From IMG/VR virus record IMGVR_UViG_3300035182_000244, positions 1 to 36,068 of that record: a DNA stretch of 36,068 nt. One strand, 5' to 3'. The notes under the pieces were generated by a model. That model was not told where the DNA came from. It saw nothing but the letters and a program-made list of their open reading frames with translations, and made no database searches. Numbering within the stretch: position 1 is the stretch's first letter; each line of letters opens with the position of its first letter. Source of the DNA: a virus. This document shows positions 3,967-35,775 of this stretch, one piece after another. The translations under genes and the position numbers were made by a program.

Positions 3967-3999
3967 TCCCCTCTGCCACCAATCGAATAGGAGTCTCCC

Positions 4000-4440
4000 A
4001 TGTCTTCCACCCCTTACCCGACCAGCGATGGCGTTGCCGTTGCAGGCATGCATACCATCCCGGTCAATCTGCCACTCGCTGCGGTTACGGCCAATGCTGA
4101 TGTGCTGACTGACTATGTTGTGCCCTTCAGCTTCCAGGTTCTCGGCCTCCGAACTGCCATCACCACCATTGCTTCCACCGCCGGGAAACAGGCTACTTTC
4201 GGCCTGTATGTTGGCCCTACGGCTTCGGCTGTGGCCGTTCCCGGCGCTTCCGTGGCTCTGACCACCGCGCTGGCTACCCCCCTGGGCAAGATCATCCTGG
4301 CCCCCGCCACTGCTCAGGGCGTCAACGCGCCGATCTATCCTGCTGGAACCAAGATCCAGCTCAAGGCCACCGGTGTCACGGCTTTCGTTGAGGGCAATGT
4401 CAGCTTCTTCATTGATCTCCGCAACTGCGACGAAGCCTAG
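4000..4440 (+). CDS. Small virion protein, possible capsid decoration
   Basis: 146 residues, Ala/Thr/Val-rich and beta-rich, without signal peptide or membrane segment. AGGAGTCTCCC precedes the ATG. It lies between the coat gene and the gp4-like gene, each side bounded by a strong hairpin, a position where many phages keep a head decoration or head-fibre protein. I do not recognise a specific family; the function is inferred from position and composition only. Confidence 0.65.
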   Translation: MSSTPYPTSDGVAVAGMHTIPVNLPLAAVTANADVLTDYVVPFSFQVLGLRTAITTIASTAGKQATFGLYVGPTASAVAVPGASVALTTALATPLGKIILAPATAQGVNAPIYPAGTKIQLKATGVTAFVEGNVSFFIDLRNCDEA

Positions 4441-4453
4441 TCGAACCGCAATA

Positions 4454-4479
4454 CGGGGGAGGGCCTAGGCTCTCCCCCG
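4454..4479 (+). terminator. Hairpin terminator-like element
   Basis: CGGGGGAG pairs with CTCCCCCG across a 10-base loop, giving an 8-bp GC stem, followed by a pyrimidine-rich ctctatctctt. It starts 14 bases after the upstream stop codon and lies before the Shine-Dalgarno GGAGG of the GTG-started gene at 4501. It probably partially terminates or attenuates transcription between head and tail genes. Confidence 0.5.
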
Positions 4480-4500
4480 GCTCTATCTCTTGGAGGGTGC

Positions 4501-5220
4501 GTGGCGACTGTTCGGGATATCTGCCAAGATGCTCTGATTGAGATTGGAGCGAATGGCCCCGCCGATGCGATGACCGCTGAGGACGGGGCATACGCTTTGC
4601 GGGTGCTGAATCGGATGGTTCAGAAGTGGTCCACTGAGGAACTGAGCGTCTACACGGTCAACCGTGACCTGTATCCCCTGGTAGCTGGGACCGCATCCTA
4701 TACCCTCGGCACGGGTGGAGTTTGGAACGCTCCACGCCCCGCACGAATCCAGATGGCCGCTGTGCTGGTGAACACGGAGCGGCCCATTGAAATCCCTGTC
4801 CAGATCCTGACGGATGAGGAATGGCGCGATGTGGCGGTGAAGACCACACCCAGCACCTTCCCAACGAAAATATGGATCACCGGGAATGTCCCATTGAATA
4901 CGGTCTTCTGCTGGCCTGTCCCGCAGGATTCCACGGTTCAGATGGTGATCTACTCTTGGGGCCGTGTGAATGAGTTTGCCAGCCTCAACGATACGGTGGT
5001 TCTGCCACTGGGCTATGAGGAGGCCCTGGTCACGAACCTCGGTATGGCCCTGTCGAACTCCTACGGGGTCCAGGTTGGGCCTGCGCTCCAGCAGCGTGCA
5101 TTCTCAGCCAAGGCCGCGCTGGAATCTCTCAATGTGGACCCATTGTATGCGTCCTTCGACGGGTTTGGTGGCGGCCGCTCCGTGGCGATTGCGACAGGTG
5201 GTTTGCAGGTTGATCGGTAA
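4501..5220 (+). CDS. Tail accessory factor / head completion protein, P22 gp4-like
   Basis: 239 residues. The N-terminal half is the conserved part of the family: TVRDICQDALIEIGANG, then ALRVLNRMVQKWSTEEL, a typical helical start of P22 gp4-type packaged-DNA-stabilising adaptors. The rest is a beta-rich middle and a helical C-terminal segment (EEALVTNLGMALSNSYG). Such proteins bind under the portal ring and connect it to the tail hub. The start is GTG 4501, supported by GGAGG at 4492-4496; no ATG gives a better start. It is followed by two small basic proteins and the gp10-like gene, as in other P22-like tail modules. Confidence 0.85.
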   Translation: MATVRDICQDALIEIGANGPADAMTAEDGAYALRVLNRMVQKWSTEELSVYTVNRDLYPLVAGTASYTLGTGGVWNAPRPARIQMAAVLVNTERPIEIPVQILTDEEWRDVAVKTTPSTFPTKIWITGNVPLNTVFCWPVPQDSTVQMVIYSWGRVNEFASLNDTVVLPLGYEEALVTNLGMALSNSYGVQVGPALQQRAFSAKAALESLNVDPLYASFDGFGGGRSVAIATGGLQVDR

Positions 5221-9768: not shown

Positions 9769-11187
9769 ATGGCCCTCGATCCTAGCATCATCCTCGCCAA
9801 TGCCGATCCATCCCGGCAGTATGATCCTGTCGCCTCCATGATGAAGGCCCAGAGCCTTCGTGCGGCGATGAATCAGAACCAGATTCAGCAGCAACAGATG
9901 CAGGACACGGCTGACTTCAGGAACCAGTATGGCGTTAGCCCTGGGGTTGCTCAGGCGGCCCAGAAGATGCAGCTCGGGAACCTTGAGAATGTGAAGGCAC
10001 AACATGAGGCAGCCAAGGCTGATCTTGAAGCACTGAATGCGTTCAAGGATCAGCAGTGGCAGACCTATTCAAAGGCCAATCCTGATAATTGGCCCCAAGT
10101 CAAGGCGGAGGCCCTGGCTAATGCACAGGCTTTCGCTCAGAAAACGGGGAGGCCATTACCCGCTAATGCGGGCGCATCAGATGAAGATGTGTTTGACCCC
10201 GTGAAACAGAAACAGCGAATGGATGGTCTTTTATCGTTTGATCGTCAACTGAAGCTGGCTGAACAGGCGCTTGCAACCCGTAAACAGGACTTTGCGGAAA
10301 CAGAACACGCCAAGTCTGATTTCGGGAAATTCGCCGCTGACATGGGACTTGCCCCCACTGATCCACAAGCCATGAAACTTTACCTCCAGGCCCACCCAAG
10401 GGCGTCCATGGGAATGGTCCAGGTTGGTGGCGGGATGCCATCCACAGACCCCGCCAAGCGATCACCACGCGCACAGATGATTGCTGACGGGCTGGTCCCG
10501 GTGCCGAAGCCCACCCGTGGAGATCCAAATGCCCTTCGCGATACGGCAGATGCTCAGCAGATCATGCTGGACCGTGGGGAAGACCCCGCTGTCCTACCTG
10601 GCAAGTTCGAGAGCGCGAAGCAGGGGCAACTCTCATTCTCTGCCGGAAAGCCTAACGCCAGGATCATCACCGCCATCAATACGGCCTCCGACCACACTGA
10701 GAATATCCTAAAGCCTGCCATGGAAGCACTCAGGAATGGTGATTGGGTGACGGCCAACAAGCTCGGCAATGCCATCGGGGTGAACTTAGGCAAGAACGAG
10801 GCGACTAACTTCGACTCGGTTGCCACATTCCTGGCGACTGAAATCGCTAAGGTTGCTTCTGGTGGTGGCCAGCCTACCATCGCAGAAATTGCCGAAGCCC
10901 GGAAGATGTTTCCGACCAATGGGAGCAATGCCCAGATCAGCGGGGCCATTGATATTGCCAACAAGATCATGGGTGGCAAGCTGTCGGCATTGGACATCGA
11001 GCACAAGAACGCCTTCGGCGGGAAGTCTATCCTCGACATGAAGCGGCTGAGTCCAGAAGCCATCAAGAATGTGGCCAATGCTCATGGGGCGGGGCCTTCG
11101 GGTTCTCCTAAGCCCGGAACAGTCATGGATGGATATGTGTTCAATGGTGGTGACCCGAAAGATCCCAAGAGCTGGAAGAAGCTATGA
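9769..11187 (+). CDS. Probable ejection (internal virion) protein
   Basis: 472 residues, largely helical, Ala/Gln/Lys-rich, with a Gln-rich coiled-coil-like start (residues 25-50) and no membrane segment. ATG 9769 is chosen, four bases after the upstream stop, instead of an ATG at 9694 inside the previous gene. The position between a gp7-like and a large gp16-like gene suggests the second of the P22-type ejection proteins. The C-terminal MDGYVFNGGDPKDPKSWKKL motif is typical of phage virion proteins. The TGA overlaps the next ATG. Confidence 0.7.
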   Translation: MALDPSIILANADPSRQYDPVASMMKAQSLRAAMNQNQIQQQQMQDTADFRNQYGVSPGVAQAAQKMQLGNLENVKAQHEAAKADLEALNAFKDQQWQTYSKANPDNWPQVKAEALANAQAFAQKTGRPLPANAGASDEDVFDPVKQKQRMDGLLSFDRQLKLAEQALATRKQDFAETEHAKSDFGKFAADMGLAPTDPQAMKLYLQAHPRASMGMVQVGGGMPSTDPAKRSPRAQMIADGLVPVPKPTRGDPNALRDTADAQQIMLDRGEDPAVLPGKFESAKQGQLSFSAGKPNARIITAINTASDHTENILKPAMEALRNGDWVTANKLGNAIGVNLGKNEATNFDSVATFLATEIAKVASGGGQPTIAEIAEARKMFPTNGSNAQISGAIDIANKIMGGKLSALDIEHKNAFGGKSILDMKRLSPEAIKNVANAHGAGPSGSPKPGTVMDGYVFNGGDPKDPKSWKKL

Positions 11188-13649
11188 GTGGCCCCTGGGA
11201 GAAGTTTCAGGAACCAGCGCAGGAAGCGCCTGCTGGCCCGTGGACTAAGTTCCAGACGCCTACGGAGCCGGTGAACGACTTCCAGCCAACCCCCTACGGA
11301 TTCAAAGTCAAGCCCATTGACCTTGGCAACGGGAAGCAGTCTGTCCAGCGCGACGATGGCATGGTTTGGTTCGGCCCAGAACAGGGGAACACTGGCAAAC
11401 CCGGCTGGTTCAATGGCCAGGGCCTGCGAGCCGGGGCCACGCCGAACGATCCAACCTCATTCATGGATACCTTCGCCAATGAACTAGTAACGAAGGCAAA
11501 CGCAGACAAGGCCAAGGGACTCATGGGCAAGATCATCCCTGAACCACTGGGAGCCATGGGTGGAGGGCTTGTCAAGGGCGGCATGGCTGCTGCCCAGCTT
11601 GGGGCGCATGTTCTAGGCTCCAACGCCATGGATAGGCCAGTGGAGCAATACGACCAATTCCAGCGGCAGAACTTCGGGGATCACCCCATCATGGAGGCCA
11701 TTGGGCAGGCCGCGCCGTTCCTGGCTTCTGGTGGTTCGTCTGCTGCCCCAGAAGCCCTGAGTGCTGCCCAGAAGGTCCGCGCCGCCCTGGCTGCGATTGG
11801 CAAAGCATCGGCTACCGGAGCCATTGCCGCACCTGCACTGACGCCTGAGACGGGCGTCACATCGCCGACAGACTACTGGACCCGCAAACTCGGTGAAGCG
11901 AAGCTAGGAGCTTCCGTTGGTGGTGGCCTTGGGGCTGCTGGGCAAGTCGTGGGAGGCGTAGCATCGAAATTGGCGCGCCCCATGGCTCCCGAGGCCCAGG
12001 CCATCCAGGATTTAGGGGATCGGTTCGGCGTTCGGACCCTGGCCCCTGATCTGGTGCCTCCTGGTGGGATGGCCAAGACCGCGGTGCTGGCTGAGTCCGT
12101 TCCTGGCTCTGGGATGGTCACCCAGCGAGTGGCGCAGCAGGCAGAAGCACGGGATGCGGCCCAGAAGATCCTTGATCAGTATGGCATCGAAGGGGATGCG
12201 TCCACCAAGATCCAGCAGGGGCTTGCCAACCGTCTAGCAACAGCCAAGGCCAGTGCCAAGGCCGCCTATGACGAGGTGGGCAGACTTGCAGAGGGCAAGG
12301 GCGAAGTTCCGCTCGACCAAACCTTGAAGGCCATCCAGAAGTTCAAGGCTCAAGAAGCCTCTGCTGTGGTCCCAGATCAAGGTTTGGTTGGGCTACTGGA
12401 CAAGATGGAAACACGCATCAAGTCAAGCATGCCAGGTGCCATTGATGAGGCCACTGGGCTTCCGTTAAATCCTGATGGGACCGTAACGCTTTATCATGGG
12501 ACTACAAAGACAGGTTTGGAAGGCATTAAGTCGTCTGGGAGACTTACATCAGCCGGTGAACCGGATGTTTACTTGACCACAGCTAAGGCGGGAACGGGTT
12601 ACGGGGATGGGACGGTGGTGCCGGTGAAGGTGAACCCGAGCAAATTGGTCTTGGATGATGAATTCCCGGACGGTCGTATGGATTTCCGAATTAGCACCAA
12701 TAGGCCGGGTGGATCCATCCCGGTTCAGGTTGACGATACGCCAAGAGTTGACCTGTCCTACACCGGCGTCCGTGGTCTCCGCTCTGACCTAGGCTCCATG
12801 ATCTCCGACTACTACAAGGGCACGAATGCGGCTACGGGTTCTAAGGGTGTCCAGGTGCTTCAAGGTGTCAAGGATGCCATCGAGGGTGATCTGAACGCCT
12901 TCACGACAACTAATGGGCCTGACCTCGCCTCAGCCGCAAAGCGTGCGGATTCGATCTACAAAAATGAGGTAATCCCATTCAAAGACAAGGCGCTTGCTTC
13001 GGCTGTGAAGTCATCCGAGCCAGATCAGATTTATAGAACATTCATTCAGGCCGGGAAGGGTGACCGAGCGCAGAAGTTCTACGACGCCCTGGACTCCGAT
13101 GGCCGGGCCGCTGTGCGAGCTCAGATGGTCCAGGATGCCTTCACGAGTGCCACGGACGGAGCCCAACCATTCAGCCCCGCTAAGTTCGCCCAGAGCCTTG
13201 AGAAAGTGAAGGATGCCTCTGGCGTATTCTTCAAGGGTCAGGACAAGTTCGAGTTGGACGGATTCACGAACCTGATGCGCCATATTCAACGGTCTGGACA
13301 GGTGGGAGAGAACCCCACAAACGGTCAGAGGCTGGTTCAGACGCTCATGGCAGGGGAAGGTGTTGGAGCCATTGGGGGGGCCATGTTGGGCCATCCTGCG
13401 GGCTTGGTGGCTCCTGCGCTATCCGTAGCCTCAGCACGGGCACTGACCAAACTATTCAGTTCCAACCTTGGCAAGCGGCTTCTGCTTGCGGCATCTGATA
13501 CTCCGGTTGGAAGCTCAGCGATGGAAAGCCTAATCCAGAAGGATCTCCCCCGTGTCCTTGGACCTGCGTCTGCCCCCAAGAACATCATGCCACTCCAAAC
13601 CATACCCAAGGCCGCAGGCGAACAAGACTCAACCATCGCCCAGAACTAA
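11184..13649 (+). CDS. Large ejection protein with embedded ADP-ribosyltransferase-like domain
   Basis: 821 residues. The N-terminus carries two GPWxKFQ motifs, common in phage ejection proteins. Gly/Ala-rich helices (residues about 115-290) could interact with membranes, and the last 110 residues include a Gly/Ala-rich hydrophobic segment. Residues about 430-515 look different: LYHGTTKTGLEGIKSSGRL (His438-Gly439-Thr440), then DVYLTTAKAG (Tyr463) and VVPVKVNPSKLVLDD, a pattern like the NAD-binding core of ADP-ribosyltransferases of the H-Y type. The flanks (ETRIKSS before, YTGVRGLRSDLGSMI after) read as if continuous in a shorter ancestor. The inferred job is DNA ejection plus possible modification of a host target on entry. 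The enzymatic assignment rests on motif resemblance only. Confidence 0.75.
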   Translation: MSGPWEKFQEPAQEAPAGPWTKFQTPTEPVNDFQPTPYGFKVKPIDLGNGKQSVQRDDGMVWFGPEQGNTGKPGWFNGQGLRAGATPNDPTSFMDTFANELVTKANADKAKGLMGKIIPEPLGAMGGGLVKGGMAAAQLGAHVLGSNAMDRPVEQYDQFQRQNFGDHPIMEAIGQAAPFLASGGSSAAPEALSAAQKVRAALAAIGKASATGAIAAPALTPETGVTSPTDYWTRKLGEAKLGASVGGGLGAAGQVVGGVASKLARPMAPEAQAIQDLGDRFGVRTLAPDLVPPGGMAKTAVLAESVPGSGMVTQRVAQQAEARDAAQKILDQYGIEGDASTKIQQGLANRLATAKASAKAAYDEVGRLAEGKGEVPLDQTLKAIQKFKAQEASAVVPDQGLVGLLDKMETRIKSSMPGAIDEATGLPLNPDGTVTLYHGTTKTGLEGIKSSGRLTSAGEPDVYLTTAKAGTGYGDGTVVPVKVNPSKLVLDDEFPDGRMDFRISTNRPGGSIPVQVDDTPRVDLSYTGVRGLRSDLGSMISDYYKGTNAATGSKGVQVLQGVKDAIEGDLNAFTTTNGPDLASAAKRADSIYKNEVIPFKDKALASAVKSSEPDQIYRTFIQAGKGDRAQKFYDALDSDGRAAVRAQMVQDAFTSATDGAQPFSPAKFAQSLEKVKDASGVFFKGQDKFELDGFTNLMRHIQRSGQVGENPTNGQRLVQTLMAGEGVGAIGGAMLGHPAGLVAPALSVASARALTKLFSSNLGKRLLLAASDTPVGSSAMESLIQKDLPRVLGPASAPKNIMPLQTIPKAAGEQDSTIAQN

Positions 13650-13661
13650 GCCGGAGACCAC

Positions 13662-15719
13662 ATGACCGCCACGCTTCCGCCTATGATCCGATTCCAACCG
13701 CTTGTCGCCGGTGCGCCTCTGCCCGGTGGCAAGGTATATTTCTACGCTGCCGGGACGACCACTCCACAAGCCGCATACGCTGCGGACGGAACCACCCCAT
13801 TGGCAAACCCGCTGACGCTAGACGCGAATGGGGCCACCTACTTTCTGCTTAGTGACACACTGACCTACAAGATTGATCTGACGGACTCCATTGGAACTCC
13901 GGTCACGGGCTGGCCGGTGGATCAGATCACTAGCTTCAATGCTGGATTTGTTCTTTCGGTCAAGAAAACAGACCTCGCTGCCACCGGCACCGGCCAGGGC
14001 GCGGGTATGGTGGGATACAAGGCACCGTTCACGGGGGCGGTGGCGACGACGCAGAACCAGGTCAACACGGAATTTATCAGCGTCTTTCGTTGGTTCACAG
14101 CAGCTCAGATCGCTGATGTCATCGCAGGAACCCTCACACTAGATGTGACTGCCGCCGTGCAGAGCGCTATCAACGGAGTGCTTCTCCGCGGCGGAACGCT
14201 TTGGTTTCCCAAAGGCTTCTACAAAATCACAGGGATGCTCAGTGTCGGCGCATCGCGCTACACGCTGGCGGATTACACCTCCAGGGCCACGCGAACGCTT
14301 CCAATGGGCGCCCCTACGCCGAATGCTACGAACGATGCGGCCAACCGAGCAAATTGTCAGGCGATCAACCTAGAATTTAGCTCGGGCGCTTTCCTGGTTG
14401 CTTCCTGGACGCCATCAGTGCTCACTCCAGTCATTGAGCACAACCTTGAGATGTATCTTGGGAAAGGCACGGTCAAGGGCCTTCGGATCATCACCCCCTA
14501 TTTGATGGATGGAACCCGTTACAACTGGGGAAATACTACAGCGAATAGTGTAGGAGGCCCCTACTTCCCGGTGGATGCCCAGACTTTCGTTCCTCCAACA
14601 AATAATCTGCTCGGCATTGTTTTCGGACAGGGCCTCGCGTCCATTCAAGATGTTGAATTTTCCGGGCTCCAGGTGGGAATGCTGGGGGTGAGCCCATACT
14701 GGACAAGCATTAAGAATGTGGTCGGCCACTTCTGCGGGGACATCGTTAACCTGTCCGAAGCCAATGCAAGCCAGATTTCCAATATCGAAGCGTGGTATTC
14801 CGGGCGAGGGCTGGTGATCGATGGCGATGTGTTCCAGGTAGACGGCCTAAACACTGAACAATGCTTGGACGATCTGGTCATCCTCGGTATGGACTGCGCG
14901 ACCTTAAAGAACTGCTATCTGGAGGATACCACGACCGCCACGAATGGGACCGGTCACGCGGCGGTAACAATTGGACAAACGACGGGTCTGACCTGCCACC
15001 AGTCTATGCTCGACGGAATCAAGGTGGGTACCACCCGCCCGAACAAACTGGCCTTCAACATAAATAATAGTGCGACGAATAATACCTACTCGAATTGCAG
15101 GGCTTTTTCCAACCCTGTTTCTTTCGGCACATCATCTAGTGGTGTGATGATAAACAGTGATTTCGCAGCCCCACAGAACGGCAAGTGGTCCGCGATTGGC
15201 ATGGGGTGTTCAATCACTGAAAACAATACCGGATCGGCGCGGGTGAAAATTGGCAAGTATATCTTCGCCTACTCGGCCACCCTGGCGAATATCTCTGCCG
15301 ATTCCTATGTATCTGCCACTCTGCCCATCGGCGTGATGCCGCCTTCCTATGGCTACATAACCTGCCAATGCCAAGCCGTGAGTGGCACGGACCTGAGGAT
15401 CGTGGCACAGGCGCGGGCTTCTCAGCCTGCCTCTGGAACCGGCTCGATAACTGGGTCCGTCATGACCATCACCTCCGGGTCTGGTTTTGCCGTTGGCCAG
15501 ATGATCAGCTACCCAGGAGCGCCTGCAAACCTAACCATCAGCTCTCTTGGGACTGGTTCAGGGGGCACTGGGACTTACAACCTGTCGGCATCGGTCACCG
15601 CCACTGGAACGATAGCGATCACCACAAACCAACTCACGATCTACTTCCAGAATACGAGTTCAGCGACGATTACGGCTCCCTATGTCAGCATCGTCATCGA
15701 CACCGAAGTATGGCTGTGA
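13662..15719 (+). CDS. Tailspike / receptor-binding protein with beta-helix
   Basis: 685 residues. Residues 1-90 (MIRFQPLVAGAPLPGGKVYFY ... GTTTPQAAYAADGTTPL ... NGATYFLLSDTLTYKI) are the N-terminal module shared by many phage tail fibre and spike proteins. Around residue 160 the sequence DVTAAVQSAINGVLLRGGTL WFPKG opens a pectate-lyase-like right-handed beta-helix that runs to about residue 500. The C-terminal part includes a SGSGFAVGQMIS ... GTGTYNLS module seen in phage fibres. It probably binds and perhaps cleaves host surface polysaccharide. GGAG precedes the ATG. It is the last gene of the late + strand unit and converges with the leftward cassette genes. Confidence 0.85.
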   Translation: MTATLPPMIRFQPLVAGAPLPGGKVYFYAAGTTTPQAAYAADGTTPLANPLTLDANGATYFLLSDTLTYKIDLTDSIGTPVTGWPVDQITSFNAGFVLSVKKTDLAATGTGQGAGMVGYKAPFTGAVATTQNQVNTEFISVFRWFTAAQIADVIAGTLTLDVTAAVQSAINGVLLRGGTLWFPKGFYKITGMLSVGASRYTLADYTSRATRTLPMGAPTPNATNDAANRANCQAINLEFSSGAFLVASWTPSVLTPVIEHNLEMYLGKGTVKGLRIITPYLMDGTRYNWGNTTANSVGGPYFPVDAQTFVPPTNNLLGIVFGQGLASIQDVEFSGLQVGMLGVSPYWTSIKNVVGHFCGDIVNLSEANASQISNIEAWYSGRGLVIDGDVFQVDGLNTEQCLDDLVILGMDCATLKNCYLEDTTTATNGTGHAAVTIGQTTGLTCHQSMLDGIKVGTTRPNKLAFNINNSATNNTYSNCRAFSNPVSFGTSSSGVMINSDFAAPQNGKWSAIGMGCSITENNTGSARVKIGKYIFAYSATLANISADSYVSATLPIGVMPPSYGYITCQCQAVSGTDLRIVAQARASQPASGTGSITGSVMTITSGSGFAVGQMISYPGAPANLTISSLGTGSGGTGTYNLSASVTATGTIAITTNQLTIYFQNTSSATITAPYVSIVIDTEVWL

Positions 15720-15796
15720 TGCTGCCCTTGCCGGTGGACTCCCCAAGGGCTGATCGAGGCTCTGGGGGGGGGCGCCCTTGAGTCAGGCAGTTAAGC
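15720..15796. other. Left junction of the cassette block with half attC-like site
   Basis: After the tailspike stop there is an inverted repeat CAAGGGC ... GCCCTTG around a run of nine G residues, then TTGAGTCAGGCA and the box GTTAAGC (15790-15796), which fits the attC R' consensus GTTRRRY. The TTA of this box is the TAA stop of the first cassette gene. The 3' half thus looks like the L'-R' arm of the other sites, but I find no R'' box on the left. The hairpin may also end tailspike transcription. Confidence 0.45.
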
Positions 15797-15955
15797 CCGT
15801 GGTTCTGTGCCGAGGATGGCGGCGATCCTGGCCTCCAGTTCCGCGATCCTGGCCTCCAGTTACTGCCACGCATTGGTCGGCGAGCAGGTGTGGACGGACC
15901 CATCTTCCGGGTCCCCGGTGAGGGTCAGGCATCGTGGGCAACATCTGGCCTTCAT
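15791..15955 (-). pseudogene. Cassette gene A: Cys-motif plus coiled-coil protein split by in-frame TAA
   Basis: From ATG 15955 the frame reads MKARCCPRCLTLTGDPEDGS and on to NAWQ, then TAA (15860-15862). It continues in the same frame as LEARIAELEARIAAILGTEP and ends at TAA 15791-15793. The first part has a CCxxC...C cluster like small zinc-ribbon phage proteins and the second a heptad-like helix; together they form a plausible 54-residue protein in which codon 32 has become a stop (GAA to TAA would restore Glu). It could be a nonsense mutation, a read-through case or a sequencing error. The terminal TAA lies inside the R' core box. No good Shine-Dalgarno is visible. Confidence 0.55.
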
Positions 15956-15980
15956 GGTTCGCGTTTTGCGCGATAGGCGG

Positions 15981-16010
15981 GCTAGCTGTTAGCCCAAATT
16001 AAAGTTAGGC
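15981..16010. other. Degenerate attC-like site between cassette genes A and B
   Basis: A GGGCTA...TAGCCC hairpin containing GTTAGCC (15988-15994) is followed nine bases later by GTTAGGC (16004-16010), whose TTA is the stop codon of the gene to the right. The TAGCT-GTTAGCC part resembles the right arms of the two long sites (16254-16383 and 17273-17397). A matching R'' box to the left is not apparent, so this is probably a decayed or recombined site. Confidence 0.4.
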
Positions 16011-16331
16011 GCTCAATTCGGCCAATCGTTTGCACCAACGGCATGCCCCATCGCCGTTCGGGTAGATACACGAGTGATTTTCAAGTTCCTGGCAAAGTTC
16101 CTTTTCGAGAATGGCGATGTAGTCAACGACCCAGACAGGAACAGACGCGCCGACAGCTTCATGCTCATACGCAAAGGCGCTCATCCTCCGCACCACGGCC
16201 TTCCTTGTTTTCTCGGACTGGATCGGGTTGCCTGCCCATGCGTTCTTAGTCGCGCCTAACCCATCGCTCAACCCGGACCCCGCCCCAACCGTCTTTGGCC
16301 CTGCTGTGAAAGGCATAGTGTGTTCGTCCAT
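16005..16331 (-). CDS. Cassette gene B: hypothetical protein
   Basis: 108 residues starting MDEHTMPFTAGPKTVGAG; the C-terminal part has an amphipathic helix (VVDYIAILEKELCQELENH) followed by CIYPNGDGACRWCKRLAELSA with three Cys that could bind a metal. AGAGGAAA four bases before ATG 16331 supports the start. I do not recognise the family. The codons for residues about 16-26 coincide with the L''-R'' arm of the neighbouring attC-like site, so the N-terminal segment may derive from the recombination site. The TAA stop (16005-16007) is part of an R' core box. Confidence 0.65.
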   Translation of the reverse strand: MDEHTMPFTAGPKTVGAGSGLSDGLGATKNAWAGNPIQSEKTRKAVVRRMSAFAYEHEAVGASVPVWVVDYIAILEKELCQELENHSCIYPNGDGACRWCKRLAELSA

Positions 16332-16383
16332 TTCGTTTCCTCTCCATGCCCACGGCGGGGCCGGTTAGCTGGTGTCGTTAGCC
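16254..16383. other. attC-like site 1 (long form, 130 bp)
   Basis: R'' GCCTAAC (16254-16260), L'' arm CCGGACCCCGCC, a loop of about 75 bases, L' arm GGCGGGGCCGG, and R' GTTAGCC (16377-16383). The arms pair perfectly apart from one unpaired A in L''. The start codon and Shine-Dalgarno of cassette gene B lie inside the loop. The R' box departs from GTTRRRY at one base, like attC-like site 3. Confidence 0.7.
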
Positions 16384-16986
16384 AGCCTCAACACACGTTT
16401 GGGATGAACCGGCAATTGAAAGTAGGAGATCCCGGAATTGGCGCGGAGTCCTCTGCCGTTGCTTCTGGCTCTGATACGCCACAACACCGCAGCGCCTGGC
16501 TGATTCATAGCCTCTCTCTGCCAGCCGCTTGGCCGGTAGACGCTGATCGGCTGGCCCCCAGATCAACTCGGGAGGTTGCGGCCCCACAACAATCAGCCAA
16601 GTCTTTTTGCGTGCGACATGGCCGTAGTGCCCCTGCTCTACCTCACAGGTCCACTCATTATCCCCGAACTGCAACCAACCCGCTTTCGGTGGCTTCGGGA
16701 TTCCAAATGCTGCCCAGGCTTTCGAGTGGGCCGGGTGTTCCAGGACACCACCAAAGGCTCGAAGAGATGCCAAGGCGGAAGCGAAGCACCCGTCATCGTC
16801 CCCGGTGGTCTTGTTTTTCAGCGTCATGCTGCCTTCCGAAAACCGGCCCCATCGCTCGCAGGGGGGATGTGCCACAACCGGGTAAGGCCCGGCGTAGAGC
16901 CTAGCGTCTCGCTCGGCATCCCACGGGTCCACTTCCGGCAGGCCGAAGTAGCATCCGTTCTTTTCCACAAATAACGCGGCAATCAT
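16378..16986 (-). CDS. Cassette gene C: conserved phage/bacterial protein of unknown function
   Basis: 202 residues starting MIAALFVEKNGCYFGLPEVD and containing DPWDAERDARLYAGPYPVVAHPPCERWGRF, GDDDGCFASALASLRAFGGVLEHP and WTCEVEQGHYGHVARKKTWL. I recognise this as a conserved family found in phages and prophages, often next to DNA-modification genes, but its biochemical role is not known to me. ATG 16986 is chosen because GGAG lies six bases upstream; the frame is open further, but that part is attC sequence. The TAA stop is inside R' GTTAGCC of attC-like site 1. Confidence 0.78.
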   Translation of the reverse strand: MIAALFVEKNGCYFGLPEVDPWDAERDARLYAGPYPVVAHPPCERWGRFSEGSMTLKNKTTGDDDGCFASALASLRAFGGVLEHPAHSKAWAAFGIPKPPKAGWLQFGDNEWTCEVEQGHYGHVARKKTWLIVVGPQPPELIWGPADQRLPAKRLAERGYESARRCGVVAYQSQKQRQRTPRQFRDLLLSIAGSSQTCVEAG

Positions 16987-17013
16987 GGGCAACTCCATCA
17001 TTTCTGTTCGGCT

Positions 17014-17069
17014 GACTAACCAGTCGTTCCAGCGGACCCCGTTGGGGCCGCTGAACTCGGGCGTTAGGC
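17014..17069. other. attC-like site 2 (56 bp)
   Basis: R'' GACTAAC (17014-17020), L'' CAGCGGACCCC, loop GTT, L' GGGGCCGCTG, R' GTTAGGC (17063-17069). L'' and L' are complementary over 10 base pairs with one extra A in L''. This is almost the same sequence as site 4. The R' TTA is the stop codon of cassette gene D. Length and layout match short attC sites of known integrons. Confidence 0.8.
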
Positions 17070-17339
17070 GCAATCCGATAGCTTGGCATAACACCAATAT
17101 CCCCCACTTCCAGCCCAGCTAATTTCAGCGTGGTGGGATCTCCCATCGCACTCCCATTCTTCGAGAAACAAATACACCTTCACCTTTTGGCTTCGCTTCA
17201 AAATGTAGCCATCCCTTTTGGGATGGGTAGTCCTTACCTCCGCCCCCTTCCGCACGGTAACAATGTCCCCGCGCCTAACCACGCGCTCAAGCGGAGCCAG
17301 CCGTTCGTCGGTGTCGATTTTCTTTTCTTCATCACTCAT
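17064..17339 (-). CDS. Cassette gene D: hypothetical phage protein, possible KOW/SH3-like barrel
   Basis: 91 residues starting MSDEEKKIDTDERLAPLERV. The part RRGDIVTVRKGAEVRTTHPK ... KRSQKVKVY ... EISWAGSGGYWCYAKLSDC has the alternating strand pattern of a small beta-barrel and resembles a phage family of unknown function. AAGGAG upstream of ATG 17339 is a strong start signal. Codons 13-23 overlap the L''-R'' arm of attC-like site 3, so the start of the gene lies inside that site's loop. Its TAA stop is the R' core of site 2. Confidence 0.72.
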   Translation of the reverse strand: MSDEEKKIDTDERLAPLERVVRRGDIVTVRKGAEVRTTHPKRDGYILKRSQKVKVYLFLEEWECDGRSHHAEISWAGSGGYWCYAKLSDCA

Positions 17340-17397
17340 GGGTCGCTCTCCTTTTTAAATTGTGCTCGGCTGTCCCGCTTAGCTGGGTCTGTTAGCC
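17273..17397. other. attC-like site 3 (long form, 125 bp)
   Basis: R'' GCCTAAC (17273-17279), L'' GCGGAGCCAGCC, a loop of about 70 bases holding the start of cassette gene D, L' GGCTGTCCCGC followed by TTAGCTGGGTCT, and R' GTTAGCC (17391-17397). Arm pairing is good but imperfect. It shares with site 1 the long loop, the TTAGCTGG spacer and the GTTAGCC core, so the two long sites form a subtype. Confidence 0.65.
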
Positions 17398-17429
17398 GCC
17401 GCCGGGATGAACCAGCGGCGGCTTGAGGG

Positions 17430-17678
17430 CTACTTCCCCTCCGGGCGCTTGTCCAGCCCGGCCCCTTTCAGCAGCGCCTCCAGGTCATCCATGTGGATGC
17501 AGTCACAGAGGCAGGCGCCCTGGTTGGTGGGCTGGATCGGGGCGATCAGGCCGTTGCAGTGGTCGTTTCCCGCGACGGCGCTATGGAGGACGCCGAGGGC
17601 GATAGGCTTGGCGTCACCGAATTCGAGCTGGATCACTTTGTCGCCGTTCTTGGCCTCACGGCCGTTTCGGTAATGCAT
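17430..17678 (-). CDS. Cassette gene E: conserved hypothetical phage protein
   Basis: 82 residues: MHYRNGREAKNGDKVIQLEF, then LGVLHSAVAGNDHCNGLIAP and GACLCDCIHMDDLEALLKGAG. This arrangement (short N-terminal barrel-like part with GDKV, then NDxCNG and a Cys-rich CLCDC motif) recurs in small phage proteins of unknown function; the Cys and His residues could bind zinc. The start signal is modest (AGGG before the ATG). It is the only cassette gene whose stop (TAG, 17430-17432) is not in the R' box; an inverted repeat gccgccg...cggcggc fills the 32 bases between. Confidence 0.7.
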   Translation of the reverse strand: MHYRNGREAKNGDKVIQLEFGDAKPIALGVLHSAVAGNDHCNGLIAPIQPTNQGACLCDCIHMDDLEALLKGAGLDKRPEGK

Positions 17679-17717
17679 GGGGAACCCTTTCAGTTGTGCC
17701 GATCTTCAATGGTTGTC

Positions 17718-17773
17718 GGCTAACCATTCATTCCAGCGGACCCTGTTGGGGCCGCTGAACTCAGGCGTTAGGC
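17718..17773. other. attC-like site 4 (56 bp)
   Basis: R'' GGCTAAC (17718-17724), L'' CAGCGGACCC, short loop, L' GGGCCGCTG, spacer AACTCAGGC, R' GTTAGGC (17767-17773). The arms pair with one unpaired A in L''. The spacer AACTCAGGC before R' is practically that of well-known attC sites such as aadA1 (AACTCAAGC). The R' TTA is the stop of cassette gene F. Confidence 0.82.
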
Positions 17774-17995
17774 GTCAAGGTTGTCCTTCTGCCACTTCTC
17801 GAAAGCATCCACGATTCGCGGTCGTTCATACCAATCCTCAATCCACTTTTGACAATTCTTGTCGCTGAAGAAAGTCGGCCCCAAATAGCTGTGCCACTCC
17901 ATCCAGATTCCACGTCCAAGATAATGAACATGGCTACAACAAATGAATCCAATGCGACGTTTCCCCGATGAATCCGTAATAGGTGAGCAGGGCAT
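17768..17995 (-). CDS. Cassette gene F: hypothetical phage protein
   Basis: 75 residues starting MPCSPITDSSGKRRIGFICC, with HVHYLGRGIWMEWHSYLGP and an Asp/Lys/Trp-rich helical C-terminus (KWIEDWYERPRIVDAFEKWQ). The MPCSPI...GFICC start resembles small phage proteins with a Cys/His metal site. AAAGGAGAAAA directly before ATG 17995 is a strong ribosome binding site. The TAA stop (17768-17770) lies in the R' core of site 4. Its AT content seems higher than in the core phage genes. Function unknown. Confidence 0.72.
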   Translation of the reverse strand: MPCSPITDSSGKRRIGFICCSHVHYLGRGIWMEWHSYLGPTFFSDKNCQKWIEDWYERPRIVDAFEKWQKDNLDA

Positions 17996-18014
17996 TTTTC
18001 TCCTTTCGTCTCAC

Positions 18015-18074
18015 GCCTAACCCCTCGTTCAAGCGGACCCGACTGCGTCGGGCCGCCTAACTTTTCCGTTAGGC
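18015..18074. other. attC-like site 5 (60 bp)
   Basis: R'' GCCTAAC (18015-18021), spacer CCCTCGTTC, L'' AAGCGGACCCGAC, loop TGC, L' GTCGGGCCGCCT, spacer, R' GTTAGGC (18068-18074). R'' and R' are perfect inverted copies. L'' carries one unpaired A and the stem is about 11 base pairs. It is the clearest site of the array and the best query for comparison with host integrons. Confidence 0.85.
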
Positions 18075-18314
18075 GTCTTCGTATGTTGCCTCGAAAATGT
18101 CAGGCTTGCAGGGATACAACTCCCCTTCAGTGCCCTTGATAACCCAGTCGCCCTTGTTTGCTCTCATCGTTCCTTCAAGGGTCACGATGTAAAGCCCTTC
18201 CGGGCTGTTGTTAATTCCCCGCGTTCCCCCCATTTCCATCACTCGTTCAACGCTTGCGGCGGTCCCGTCGTAGAGTTCCGCGTCAATCAGAACTGGCTTC
18301 TTCCGGAATTTCAT
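18069..18314 (-). CDS. Cassette gene G: PGDYG-like phage protein
   Basis: 81 residues: MKFRKKPVLIDAELYDGTAA ... GLYIVTLEGTMRANKGDWVIK ... GELYPCKPDIFEATYEDA. The KxRKKPVxIxA start and the GDWVIxGxxGExYPCKPxIFEATYE end are the signature of a very common small phage protein family (PGDYG type) of unknown function. A perfect AGGAGG lies four bases before ATG 18314. Its TAA stop is the R' core of site 5. It shows that the cassette cargo consists of phage genes, not resistance genes. Confidence 0.82.
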   Translation of the reverse strand: MKFRKKPVLIDAELYDGTAASVERVMEMGGTRGINNSPEGLYIVTLEGTMRANKGDWVIKGTEGELYPCKPDIFEATYEDA

Positions 18315-18344
18315 GATTCCTCCTGTTACGTTTTCGTGTTCGCC

Positions 18345-18404
18345 GCCTAACCTGTCGTTCGACTCGGACGCGACACGCCGCGCCGGTCAACTCATGCGTT
18401 GGGG
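18345..18404. other. attC-like site 6 (60 bp), right end of array
   Basis: R'' GCCTAAC (18345-18351), L'' GACTCGGACGCG, loop, L' CGCGCCGGTC, spacer AACTCATGC, R' GTTGGGG (18398-18404). The L'' arm has two unpaired bases (T and A) opposite L'. The R' box deviates from GTTRRRY only in its last base. It adjoins the last short frame of the leftward early operon. Confidence 0.72.
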
Positions 18405-19242: not shown

Positions 19243-20093
19243 GCGACCGGCCCCGTGACATCCTGGGCCTTCTTCTTCGCGGCGGCCTCCAGCTTCACCA
19301 CCACCTCCTCAAACTTCGTCAGCGTCTCCTGGGGCGGGTTGGCCTTCTGCGCGGCCTTCCACTTCGCGGCGAACTCGTCATAGGCGGGCTTCATCCCGGC
19401 GGCCCTGAAGGCGGTGTAGGCGCGGTCCAGGATGCCCTCGAACTCGCTGAGGGCTTCGATGCTCCAGGCTTCGGGATGGGGCGGCGGTGGCGCGTCGTGG
19501 GTATGATTCAGGGGCTTCAGGTCTGGGGTAGGAGTCGGATCGAAGCCAGCTTGGGCCATCTCGTCCGAGGTGTAGAGCCCCGCCATCTCATTTGGGTAGG
19601 CGCGGCGAAGGGCCAGGGCCTCAGCGCATTTCGCGGTCATGTGGTCGCCGAGCGTGGCCCATACCTGGTTGGGGGTGCCGTCCTTCTTCTTCTGGACGTA
19701 GCTGTCGTACTTGGCGATGCCAGAAAGGCCGGTTCGGAAGCCCTTCCGGTGGACGAGCACCTTGGCGGCGAAGCAGGGCTCATCCTTGGCCCATACCTCT
19801 TGCCATACGCCGTCCTTCCCACACCACCAGGGGCCCTCCTGTCCCTCATAGTCGCCGGAATCCACGGCGATCTTACGTAGTCCATCGATTGTGACGAGCC
19901 ATGTCCAGATCGTGACCCACTGCCCGTTCCGGTTGGTGTTCCGGCTGGACGGCATGATCTGGCGGGCAAACGGGTCCAGTCCGGTCCGTTCGCAGGTGGC
20001 TATGAAGAGGGCCACGTCATCCTTGCTGGCGCCATCCATGAAGGTCCGATGAACCAGGGCGATCTCTTCGGGGGTGAATTTACGGGTTGTCAT
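19239..20093 (-). CDS. Single-strand annealing protein, RecT/Bet family
   Basis: 284 residues. The family core is clear: FIATCERTGLDPFARQI (residues 30-46), WLVTIDGLRKIAVDSGDYEG (65-84), GPWWCGKDGVW, AAKVLVHRKGF, and WATLGDHMTAKCAEALALRRAYP (145-167). The protein anneals complementary strands in phage recombination, usually with a partner 5'-3' exonuclease; none is recognised in this operon. ATG 20093 is preferred to the upstream start because TGATG couples it to the preceding coiled-coil gene. The C-terminal 100 residues are a Pro-rich linker and a helical region. Redbeta-like (Bet) is the closer branch. Confidence 0.9.
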   Translation of the reverse strand: MTTRKFTPEEIALVHRTFMDGASKDDVALFIATCERTGLDPFARQIMPSSRNTNRNGQWVTIWTWLVTIDGLRKIAVDSGDYEGQEGPWWCGKDGVWQEVWAKDEPCFAAKVLVHRKGFRTGLSGIAKYDSYVQKKKDGTPNQVWATLGDHMTAKCAEALALRRAYPNEMAGLYTSDEMAQAGFDPTPTPDLKPLNHTHDAPPPPHPEAWSIEALSEFEGILDRAYTAFRAAGMKPAYDEFAAKWKAAQKANPPQETLTKFEEVVVKLEAAAKKKAQDVTGPVA

Positions 20094-21039: not shown

Positions 21040-21302
21040 GCGGGGGTCTCTATGTCACGGAAGCCCGGCAGCCGGTCCAGGAAGATCTGCGTGGTCATGG
21101 GCACTTCGGAGGGCCGGTTGCCGTGGCGGGTCTGGATCTGGACGCACACGGTGTCCATGGCGTGGTAGAGCTCGGCGGCCTTCTGCCGGGCCATCTCCCA
21201 CGCGGCAAGGCAGTCATCGTTCGCGGGGTCGCAGAGCTCGGTCAGTTCCGCGAAGATGCCGACGGCGGTGGTGCGAGTAACGTCTTCCGTGGAGGGGGTC
21301 AT
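21036..21302 (-). CDS. Hypothetical early protein
   Basis: 88 residues, mostly helical: MTPSTEDVTRTTAVGIFAEL ... AAWEMARQKAAELYHAMDTV, with a C-terminal PMTTQIFLDRLPGFRD. No known motif. Both ends overlap neighbouring genes by the ATGA arrangement, which supports it as a real gene of the leftward operon. Confidence 0.65.
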   Translation of the reverse strand: MTPSTEDVTRTTAVGIFAELTELCDPANDDCLAAWEMARQKAAELYHAMDTVCVQIQTRHGNRPSEVPMTTQIFLDRLPGFRDIETPA

Positions 21303-21997
21303 GACAGCTCCTTCCTGTGCGCCTCAGCCATACGGAGCGCCTTGGCCCTCGTGATCTCAAAGGCCGCCGCGCGTTCCTCGGATTCCGCGCTACCGTCATC
21401 GGGGAACTCGGAAACGTTGCTCTTGCGGATGCCAATGGCGTCCCACTCCTCCACGGAGTGGAAGAGGCATCCCATGCGCACGTAGGGGACGCCGTCAGTG
21501 GTGATCGCGGCCCAGCACTGGTACTTGTAGAGTCCAGTCATGACCACGACTGCGGCTAACCTCTGATCGCCGTATCTCGCCCCAGCGAGGATCGCCCCAG
21601 CAAGGTTCGCCCCAGCAAGGTTCGCCCCAGTGAGGATCGCCCCAGTGAGGATCGCCCCAGTGAGGTTCGCCCCGGCCAGGTCCGCCCCAGCGAGGATCGC
21701 CCCAGTGAGGTTCGCCACGGTGAGGGTCGCCCCGGCCAGGTCCGCCTTGGCGAGGGTCGTCCCGGCCAGGTTCGCCTTGGCGAGGATCGTCCCGCTGAGG
21801 TCCGCCTTGGTGAGGTCCGCCTTGGTGAGGTCCGCCATGTAGAGGTCCTCACCGGCGAGGTTTGCAGCGGCTAGGTTCGCCACGGAGCCTTCGTCACCCG
21901 CAAGCCATTTTTTGTGGTCAGCCAAGACGGTCTGGAGCTCTGCGGGTGTATATCGTCGCAACGTCATCGGGGCTTTCTGCTCGGTGGTTTGGGTCAT
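21299..21997 (-). CDS. Pentapeptide-repeat protein
   Basis: 232 residues from ATG 21997 (an ATG at 21967 is also possible; neither has a strong ribosome site). Residues about 40-140 are twenty or so A(N/D)LxG-type pentapeptides (ANLAGEDLYMADLTKADLTK, etc.) that fold into a quadrilateral beta-helix. The remaining C-terminal 90 residues (YQCWAAITTDGVPYVRMGCL, HSVEEWDAIG) form a separate domain common in phage proteins. Some pentapeptide proteins mimic DNA and bind gyrase, but many have no known role, so function is open. It is the promoter-proximal gene of the leftward operon. Confidence 0.82.
   Translation of the reverse strand: MTQTTEQKAPMTLRRYTPAELQTVLADHKKWLAGDEGSVANLAAANLAGEDLYMADLTKADLTKADLSGTILAKANLAGTTLAKADLAGATLTVANLTGAILAGADLAGANLTGAILTGAILTGANLAGANLAGAILAGARYGDQRLAAVVVMTGLYKYQCWAAITTDGVPYVRMGCLFHSVEEWDAIGIRKSNVSEFPDDGSAESEERAAAFEITRAKALRMAEAHRKELS
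21578..21880. repeat. 15-bp tandem repeats encoding pentapeptides
   Basis: About twenty degenerate 15-bp units (+ strand pattern nnGGnTCGCCCCnGn), several identical to their neighbours at DNA level, for example the run of agg-t/a-tcgccccag units near 21600-21660. The near-identity of adjacent units suggests recent expansion by slippage. Confidence 0.75.
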
Positions 21998-22125
21998 GAG
22001 TTCGCTACATGGAGTTGTGGTGGGGCCGGATGTTTCAGGTGGGATCTTCAGGGGCCAGTCCGGCACAACCTGGCCCCCTCAAAGATCCGCCCGTCAGCCG
22101 CGACTTCCGGGGTGCTGCAAGGGCA

Positions 22126-34906: not shown

Positions 34907-34941
34907 ATGGTTGTTATCAGCTCTATTGATTGGGTTATGCC

Positions 34942-35775
34942 ATGACCGATTTCGCCACCACTTCCGATGTCGTCTCCGCCCTCGCTGCCGCTGGCAATTC
35001 CGGCGCGGGTGGACGATTCAACTTCTACAAGACGAGCCTGACCGCCGTAGCCTCCAACTGGTATTCAGGTTGGCAGGAGGGCGGAGCGCCTGCGGCGGGT
35101 GCGACTCCCGGAGCGTGGGCGAACCCAACCAATGCCACGCTCGGGGCGTACAACCCCAATTACGTCAATCCCGGCACCGCTACCTGCCGCCTGCTGTGGG
35201 GCTCCATCGCTCAGGCCAACGCGGGGCAGGGAAAGTGGCTGATCGACCGCCTGGGTCACATGGGCGGTCTCAGCGGGACCGTGACCACAGCCCAGTCCAC
35301 CGGCGCGGCGATGAGTTCGCCCGTTAGCGATGGCCGGTGCTCGTCGGACTACTCCGATGTGGAGTGGTATCTGGAGTGGTATACGGCCACGGGCTCCACT
35401 GGCGTCACTGCCACTTGCGCTGTGACATACAACGATGCGTCCACCGGGTCCACGGCTGTCACCATTGCGGCCTCACTGCCTGCCTACCGCATGCTTCCGA
35501 TCCAGCCCCCCGCTGGCACCGTAGGCAAGTGGATCAAGACGGTAGATTCCGTGACCCTCAGCGCCAGCACGGGCACCGCTGGCAGTTTCGGCGTCACGGC
35601 GGTCAAGCGGCTGGCGCCGTTCCTGAGCCTCGCCGCGAACTATGCGGACACCAGGGACTTCGCAGCGCTCTCGATGCCCAAGGTAGGCGCGAATGCCTGC
35701 ATAAACGCGATGTACTGGACGACCACGACCAGCACCGGCACCAGCGTCGGCTCCTTCGCTATCGGGGCCAAGTAG
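34942..35775 (+). CDS. Probable virion protein, variable (right copy)
   Basis: 277 residues, same length as the protein at 166-999 and about 90 percent identical by eye, with substitutions such as NIFKTG to NFYKTS and NPTATTLGS to NPTNATLGA. Many differences are Ser/Thr/Ala swaps, so the fold should be the same. The context is also the same: downstream of the 139-residue protein gene and two bases before the repeat protein gene. If the contig is circular, this is the same locus from another strain variant. Confidence 0.7.
   Translation: MTDFATTSDVVSALAAAGNSGAGGRFNFYKTSLTAVASNWYSGWQEGGAPAAGATPGAWANPTNATLGAYNPNYVNPGTATCRLLWGSIAQANAGQGKWLIDRLGHMGGLSGTVTTAQSTGAAMSSPVSDGRCSSDYSDVEWYLEWYTATGSTGVTATCAVTYNDASTGSTAVTIAASLPAYRMLPIQPPAGTVGKWIKTVDSVTLSASTGTAGSFGVTAVKRLAPFLSLAANYADTRDFAALSMPKVGANACINAMYWTTTTSTGTSVGSFAIGAK

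Follow-up and report, generated by a model that had tools for sequence, protein, structure and literature searches.

The virus record IMGVR_UViG_3300035182_000244 (36,068 nucleotides, analysed at its full length and called the window below) contains an array of small minus-strand genes and hairpin sites, flanked by the end of a tailspike gene and a leftward early operon. It is probably an integrase-less integron cassette array that extends this operon in a P22-like podovirus, with its cassettes exchanged through an integrase acting in trans. The hairpins are genuine attC sites, as an earlier reading of the sequence alone had held; that sequence-only reading was silent on the most unusual feature of the array, the inverted polarity of its genes relative to their attC sites, and on the attI-like fixed sequence at its left end. 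Reversal of polarity, seen here and in about 90% of the phage arrays examined, suggests a cassette pool that belongs to the phages themselves. The P22-like setting proposed earlier is borne out by family matches for terminase (phrog_38), portal (phrog_156) and coat (phrog_283) genes; the window, which is the whole virus record, also has genes for a DnaB-like helicase and for an annealing protein of RecT type.

The hairpins were scored with a covariance model, R1, built solely from 16 distinct attC sites of plasmid class 1 integrons and including no site from the window. The earlier reading had listed at least six attC-like sites and proposed a check of this kind: five have significant matches (expectation values, E, of 7.5e-13 to 6e-4), and a sixth scores weakly (0.21). 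All R1 matches are on the plus strand, the best site reaching 59 bits versus 13 on the opposite strand, and nothing in the rest of the 36-kb window exceeds 14.2 bits. Independently of R1, BLASTn of the raw region against plasmids found true attC sites beside aacA34, qacF5/aadA5 and blaOXA-732; these cover two window sites, in identical orientation in all cases. An Rfam scan of the window gave no match, Rfam having no attC family. The sites possess R''/L''/L'/R' boxes and an extrahelical base; the R'' and R' sequences and the AACTCAGGC spacer are as originally described, and the unpaired A ascribed to L'' of five sites was detected as A in four of them and as C in the fifth. With five sites at E ≤ 6e-4 within 1.4 kb (at least two close together being expected) and no PF00589 match in the record, the array has the make-up of a CALIN (cluster of attC sites lacking integron integrases). 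The sequence GTTAAGC at 15790 may be the remnant of another attC.

Every plasmid attC that was recognised has its extra base in L'', on the same strand as the genes, and a typical cassette gene is oriented like its attC. In the window all cassette genes are on the minus strand and all attC sites on the plus strand, each gene thus being opposite to its own attC. The generality of this arrangement was surveyed by running one attC pattern on IMG/VR and on GTDB bacterial genomes, with the covariance model run on both locus sets. The gene strand between neighbouring sites was assigned by a classifier trained on long open reading frames (ORFs) and their shadow ORFs (cross-validated area under the curve 0.87), which replaced an ambiguous count of longest-ORF orientations. 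Viral cassettes were opposite to attC in 130 cases and the same in 14; the bacterial counts were 6 and 116. A second IMG/VR scan used a different pattern, with a bacterial attC profile for scoring; it counted 82 cassettes as opposite and 6 as the same, and the profile and the covariance model agree in polarity at 196 of 196 sites. Ratios of opposite to same are 204:20 (viral) and 6:113 (bacterial) for non-redundant cassettes, and 89:10 versus 1:39 for whole arrays (Fisher p 4e-25, integrase-bearing contig excluded). In-frame stops at the core, found at 120 of 240 viral versus 50 of 241 bacterial sites, separate the two sets in part only. The anatomy of the array is well supported.

About 100 IMG/VR contigs with such arrays were found and others have been published (PMC9892861), so that phage cassettes, earlier thought rare, are not very rare. 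In 34 of the 36 inverted arrays for which enough flank was present, the upstream flank is co-directional. Terminase genes occur in 16 of 50 viral records, and the array is inverted in all 16 save L136 and L145; the viral status of the other contigs rests on IMG/VR, because they are fragments or have other terminase types. By GenBank gene calls, the published phages MW202573 and PH101 have inverted arrays and TJE1 does not; the covariance model found no match in P12002L. Among the same 50 records the sole true integron integrase is in G047 (L145), one of the few with bacterial polarity. This record (IMGVR_UViG_2834908352_000001) carries a complete integron integrase, with an array of normal orientation adjoining terminase genes, and is probably a prophage beside a host integron, or misbinned. 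Other viral arrays of bacterial-type polarity are L113, L119, L133, L136, L308, L325, L345 and L357, of which L113 and L136 are related. The record containing L105 (G020) has two attC arrays that are opposite in polarity, at 3970-4764 (+) and 10642-16784 (-), with about 16 model matches.

Comparison with relatives, retrieved by a search with g7 (gene and site names are those of Table 1), gives good support to cassette exchange in phages as a real process, because related viral contigs have both flanks in common yet differ in the identity or order of their cassettes, several of the junctions lying at the G/TT of the core (the slash marks the cut site). The early-operon flank from window position 19245 to about 18440 is common to L291, L292, L295 and L296, as is g7, and the middle differs. 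L112/L291 keeps the g1 cassette (92.7% identity), continues with four other genes and rejoins the window sequence from 16011, with the breaks at cores. In L293, g1 stands directly on the attI-like site, and in the window at the far end of the array. A cassette of 688 nt is common to L087 and L117, contigs that are otherwise different, and ends within R' cores. Overall, 13 of 83 alignment ends among relatives have a core within 4 nt on both sides, the expectation for a single side being 2.6% and the ends not all being independent. The gain, loss and change of order that the sequence-only reading had suggested looking for were thus all seen, several breakpoints falling at G/TT and some junctions off-core, and its proposal that cassette exchange varies the accessory genes of the phage is supported by the relatives' differing cassettes.

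The left end of the array is a candidate attI site. A fixed plus-strand sequence, CTGTTCGCCCAAATCAAAG/TTAGGC, is conserved in the window, L291, L292, L293 and L297 with differing neighbours, and it resembles attI1, CAGTCGCCCTAAAACAAAG/TTAGGC. Among the loci compared, a loose form of the motif is confined to the plasmid copies of attI1 and these phage sites. The fixed site is at the promoter-distal end of the array, at the 3' end of the early operon.

The cargo is phage-type, as first proposed, and includes DNA methyltransferases: five or six of 60 inverted viral cassette proteins match families of these enzymes, and there are single matches to Mom, the restriction-alleviation protein Lar, RNA ligase and queuine tRNA-ribosyltransferase, many of the 60 having no known family. 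Nineteen homolog pairs of cassette proteins link different viral contigs; within the sampled sets there were no viral-bacterial pairs.

How might such an array exchange cassettes? The 36-kb record contains no intI gene. Because the window encodes no integrase and most records tested lack any tyrosine recombinase, an integron integrase from the host, or from another element in the same cell, would act in trans. During infection it would recombine the bottom strand of an attC with the attI-like site or with another attC, and the outcome would be the swapping of accessory genes (DNA modification, counter-defence) among phages. IntI1 recombines phage attC sites in vivo, five of the six tested (PMC9892861).

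Since the genes point at the attI-like end, a cassette promoter (Pc) placed there, as in a complete integron, could not drive them; being inverted relative to attC, they are apparently read from the phage operon. The insertion end is promoter-distal in the operon, and a cassette there can be read only if it is inverted. Expression from the operon side would be the simplest reason for the inversion, and expression from opposite sides may also account for the apparent separation of the phage pool from that of bacteria. A further benefit can be imagined. Recombination is raised when the attC bottom strand is on the lagging-strand template (PMC5371416, PMC11023631); if replication ran co-directionally with the operon, that template would hold the coding strand, which is the recombinogenic one here. 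The GC skew of the window does not reveal the direction of replication. The expression and lagging-strand readings are compatible, and the latter may add to the former. There is perhaps an even chance that phages keep their own branch of the integron system, in which a gene-against-attC pool feeds promoter-distal attI-like sites at operon ends, with the coding strand recombinogenic and maybe on the lagging-strand template; such a pool would be expressible in phages and silent in host integrons, and the reverse would hold for bacterial cassettes.

Other explanations cover parts of this picture. Homologous recombination, for example by the phage RecT-like annealing protein on the similar attC repeats, would shuffle cassettes without an integrase: the window encodes such a protein, its attC sites are repeats of 55-60 bp, and off-core junctions occur in relatives. 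It is nevertheless unlikely, since between L293 and the window the g1 cassette and the attI-like site are joined via the 7-bp core only, the far side being unrelated, and the cassette shared by L087 and L117 starts and stops inside R' cores. A little less likely again is a relic, captured once from a host integron, now inert and retained for its useful genes. The missing integrase in the window and most records, the weakness of S2 and S7 and the decay of g7 would fit this, but close relatives have different cassettes at the same site, shared cassettes are still about 90% identical, and in the bacterial arrays sampled hardly any cassettes are inverted and the cargo has no homologs.

The hairpins might instead be retained chiefly because they act as RNA in the operon (as terminators, or in processing or translation control), their attC likeness being due to descent. 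There is a hairpin between every gene pair, the g4 and g6 start codons lie within attC loops, and attC sites have been proposed as weak terminators (PMC9892861). Conservation to E 1e-12, relative to plasmid attC, of spacer and box sequences that serve integrase binding only, together with the several cassette junctions at the cut site, makes this improbable. Least credible, to the point of being nearly dismissed, is that the inversion is an artefact of short genes called on the wrong strand: the accuracy of the classifier taken alone would allow some doubt, but the identical procedure gave the opposite result in bacteria (116:6), PH101 and MW202573 are inverted by GenBank annotation independent of the present gene calls, and for some inverted genes there are Pfam or PHROG matches, along with homologs in other phages.

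Several points weigh against exchange of integron cassettes in trans, the explanation preferred here. Cassette recombination in these phages is deduced from sequence comparison, some junctions, as in L295 and L296, are off-core, and g5 joins g7 elsewhere in L295. The resemblance to attI1 spans about 20 bases, and L295 and L296 are without the fixed site. The record encodes no integrase, and the attC core of the phage has no exact match in GTDB genomes or IMG/VR, so that attC does not point to a host. In addition, S2 has a weak R1 score, and a minority of phage arrays, TJE1 included, have normal polarity.

Integrase-less attC clusters in phages are already known: like the window array, the CALINs of virulent phages (Qi et al. 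2023, PMC9892861) are carried in phage genomes and have small cargo genes including DNA methyltransferases. That paper calls the TJE1 and PH101 cassettes oriented like typical bacterial arrays, whereas PH101, MW202573 and the window array are inverted here; a phage attI-like fixed site with core-bounded exchange between relatives is not described in the text of PMC9892861 that was consulted. No report of a general inversion or of a phage attI-like site was found in the open full-text literature, subscription papers and preprints being outside the search. With class 1 and chromosomal bacterial integrons the window array shares attC architecture, the extrahelical base, the G/TT core and a candidate insertion sequence resembling attI1; it differs in having no intI, genes opposite to attC, expression apparently from the far side, and phage-type cargo without homologs in the bacterial arrays sampled. 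MW202573, a P22-like phage from Manatee Spring, similarly has P22-type coat and portal annotations and an inverted array, which lies between early genes (gp157-like) and late lysis genes, a location matching that of the window array; its cassettes are different, and a search for the attI-like motif gave no match in it. Cassettes can also insert at a G/TT-type genomic site without a resident integrase, a process known as attG insertion. Compared with attG sites, so named in PMC12901181, the target in the window is one conserved attI1-resembling site reused by several relatives.

Phages thus appear to do more than carry bacterial integron debris: the exchange seems to be polarity-reversed and to draw on a gene pool of their own, whose members include DNA methyltransferases, a protein of the Mom family and one for restriction alleviation. 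This would provide a concrete account of one-at-a-time swapping for some phage accessory genes, and the gene-against-attC rule separates most viral from bacterial arrays in metagenomes.

Table 1. Sites and genes of the cassette array, from the promoter-distal to the promoter-proximal end (window positions).
Feature	Position	Strand	Description
g7	15791-15955	-	resident gene past the fixed site; decayed, in-frame TAA at codon 32
attI-like site	15975-16010	+	...CTGTTAGCCCAAATTAAAG/TTAGGC; kept in relatives with other neighbours
g6	16005-16331	-	108 amino acids (aa), function unknown; weak phrog_17362 match; stop at fixed-site core
attC S2	16254-16383	+	R1 weak (16257-16380, E 0.21); long loop holding g6 start
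g5	16378-17001	-	phrog_12600; stop in S2 core
attC S3	17014-17069	+	R1 E 1.4e-12; BLAST match is attC of aacA34
g4	17064-17339	-	91 aa, function unknown; stop in S3 core
attC S4	17273-17397	+	R1 E 6e-4; long loop holding g4 start codon and ribosome site
g3	17430-17678	-	82 aa; found widely in phages, with 343 IMG/VR relatives
attC S5	17718-17773	+	R1 E 7.5e-13; BLAST match is attC upstream of aadA5
g2	17768-17995	-	75 aa, phrog_7990, function unknown; stop in S5 core
attC S6	18015-18074	+	R1 E 2.7e-11
g1	18069-18314	-	81 aa, phrog_419 family, weakly PGDYG-like; stop TAA in S6 core
attC S7	18345-18404	+	R1 39.4 bits, E 9e-8; right, promoter-proximal array end

Of the seven small genes originally counted, six are intact and the seventh, g7, is decayed; it is intact in L291 (4280-4435 of L112), and in the window it also lacks the clear ribosome site that relatives have. 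In five of the six intact genes the TAA stop coincides exactly with the TTA of a cassette core; g3 is the exception, its stop lying 33 nt short of one. Relatives of g3 also sit between attC sites in L026 and L068; some phage relatives of g5 are annotated as DNA adenine methyltransferase or methylase; and no protein homolog of g4 or g6 turned up in the phage collection. The g1 cassette is present in L291, L293 and L296 as well, next to differing neighbours. The description of g1 as PGDYG-like stands weakly as a Pfam match (E 0.15, under the cut-off), its phage family match being strong (phrog_419, 4e-30). A stretch of about 105 bases in g1 matches, at 70-75%, DNA from phages of Streptococcus, Gordonia, Mycobacterium, Bacillus and Vibrio: for a small gene, g1 is conserved to an unusual degree between distant phages, and it has once been annotated as MazG-like.

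Outside the array, the window has two 281-aa genes, highly similar yet not identical, one at each end of the record (154-999 and 34930-35775). A minus-strand ORF at 21299-22066 contains long pentapeptide-type repeats (ADLxxADL) whose copy number varies among relatives, with which it gives many overlapping alignments.

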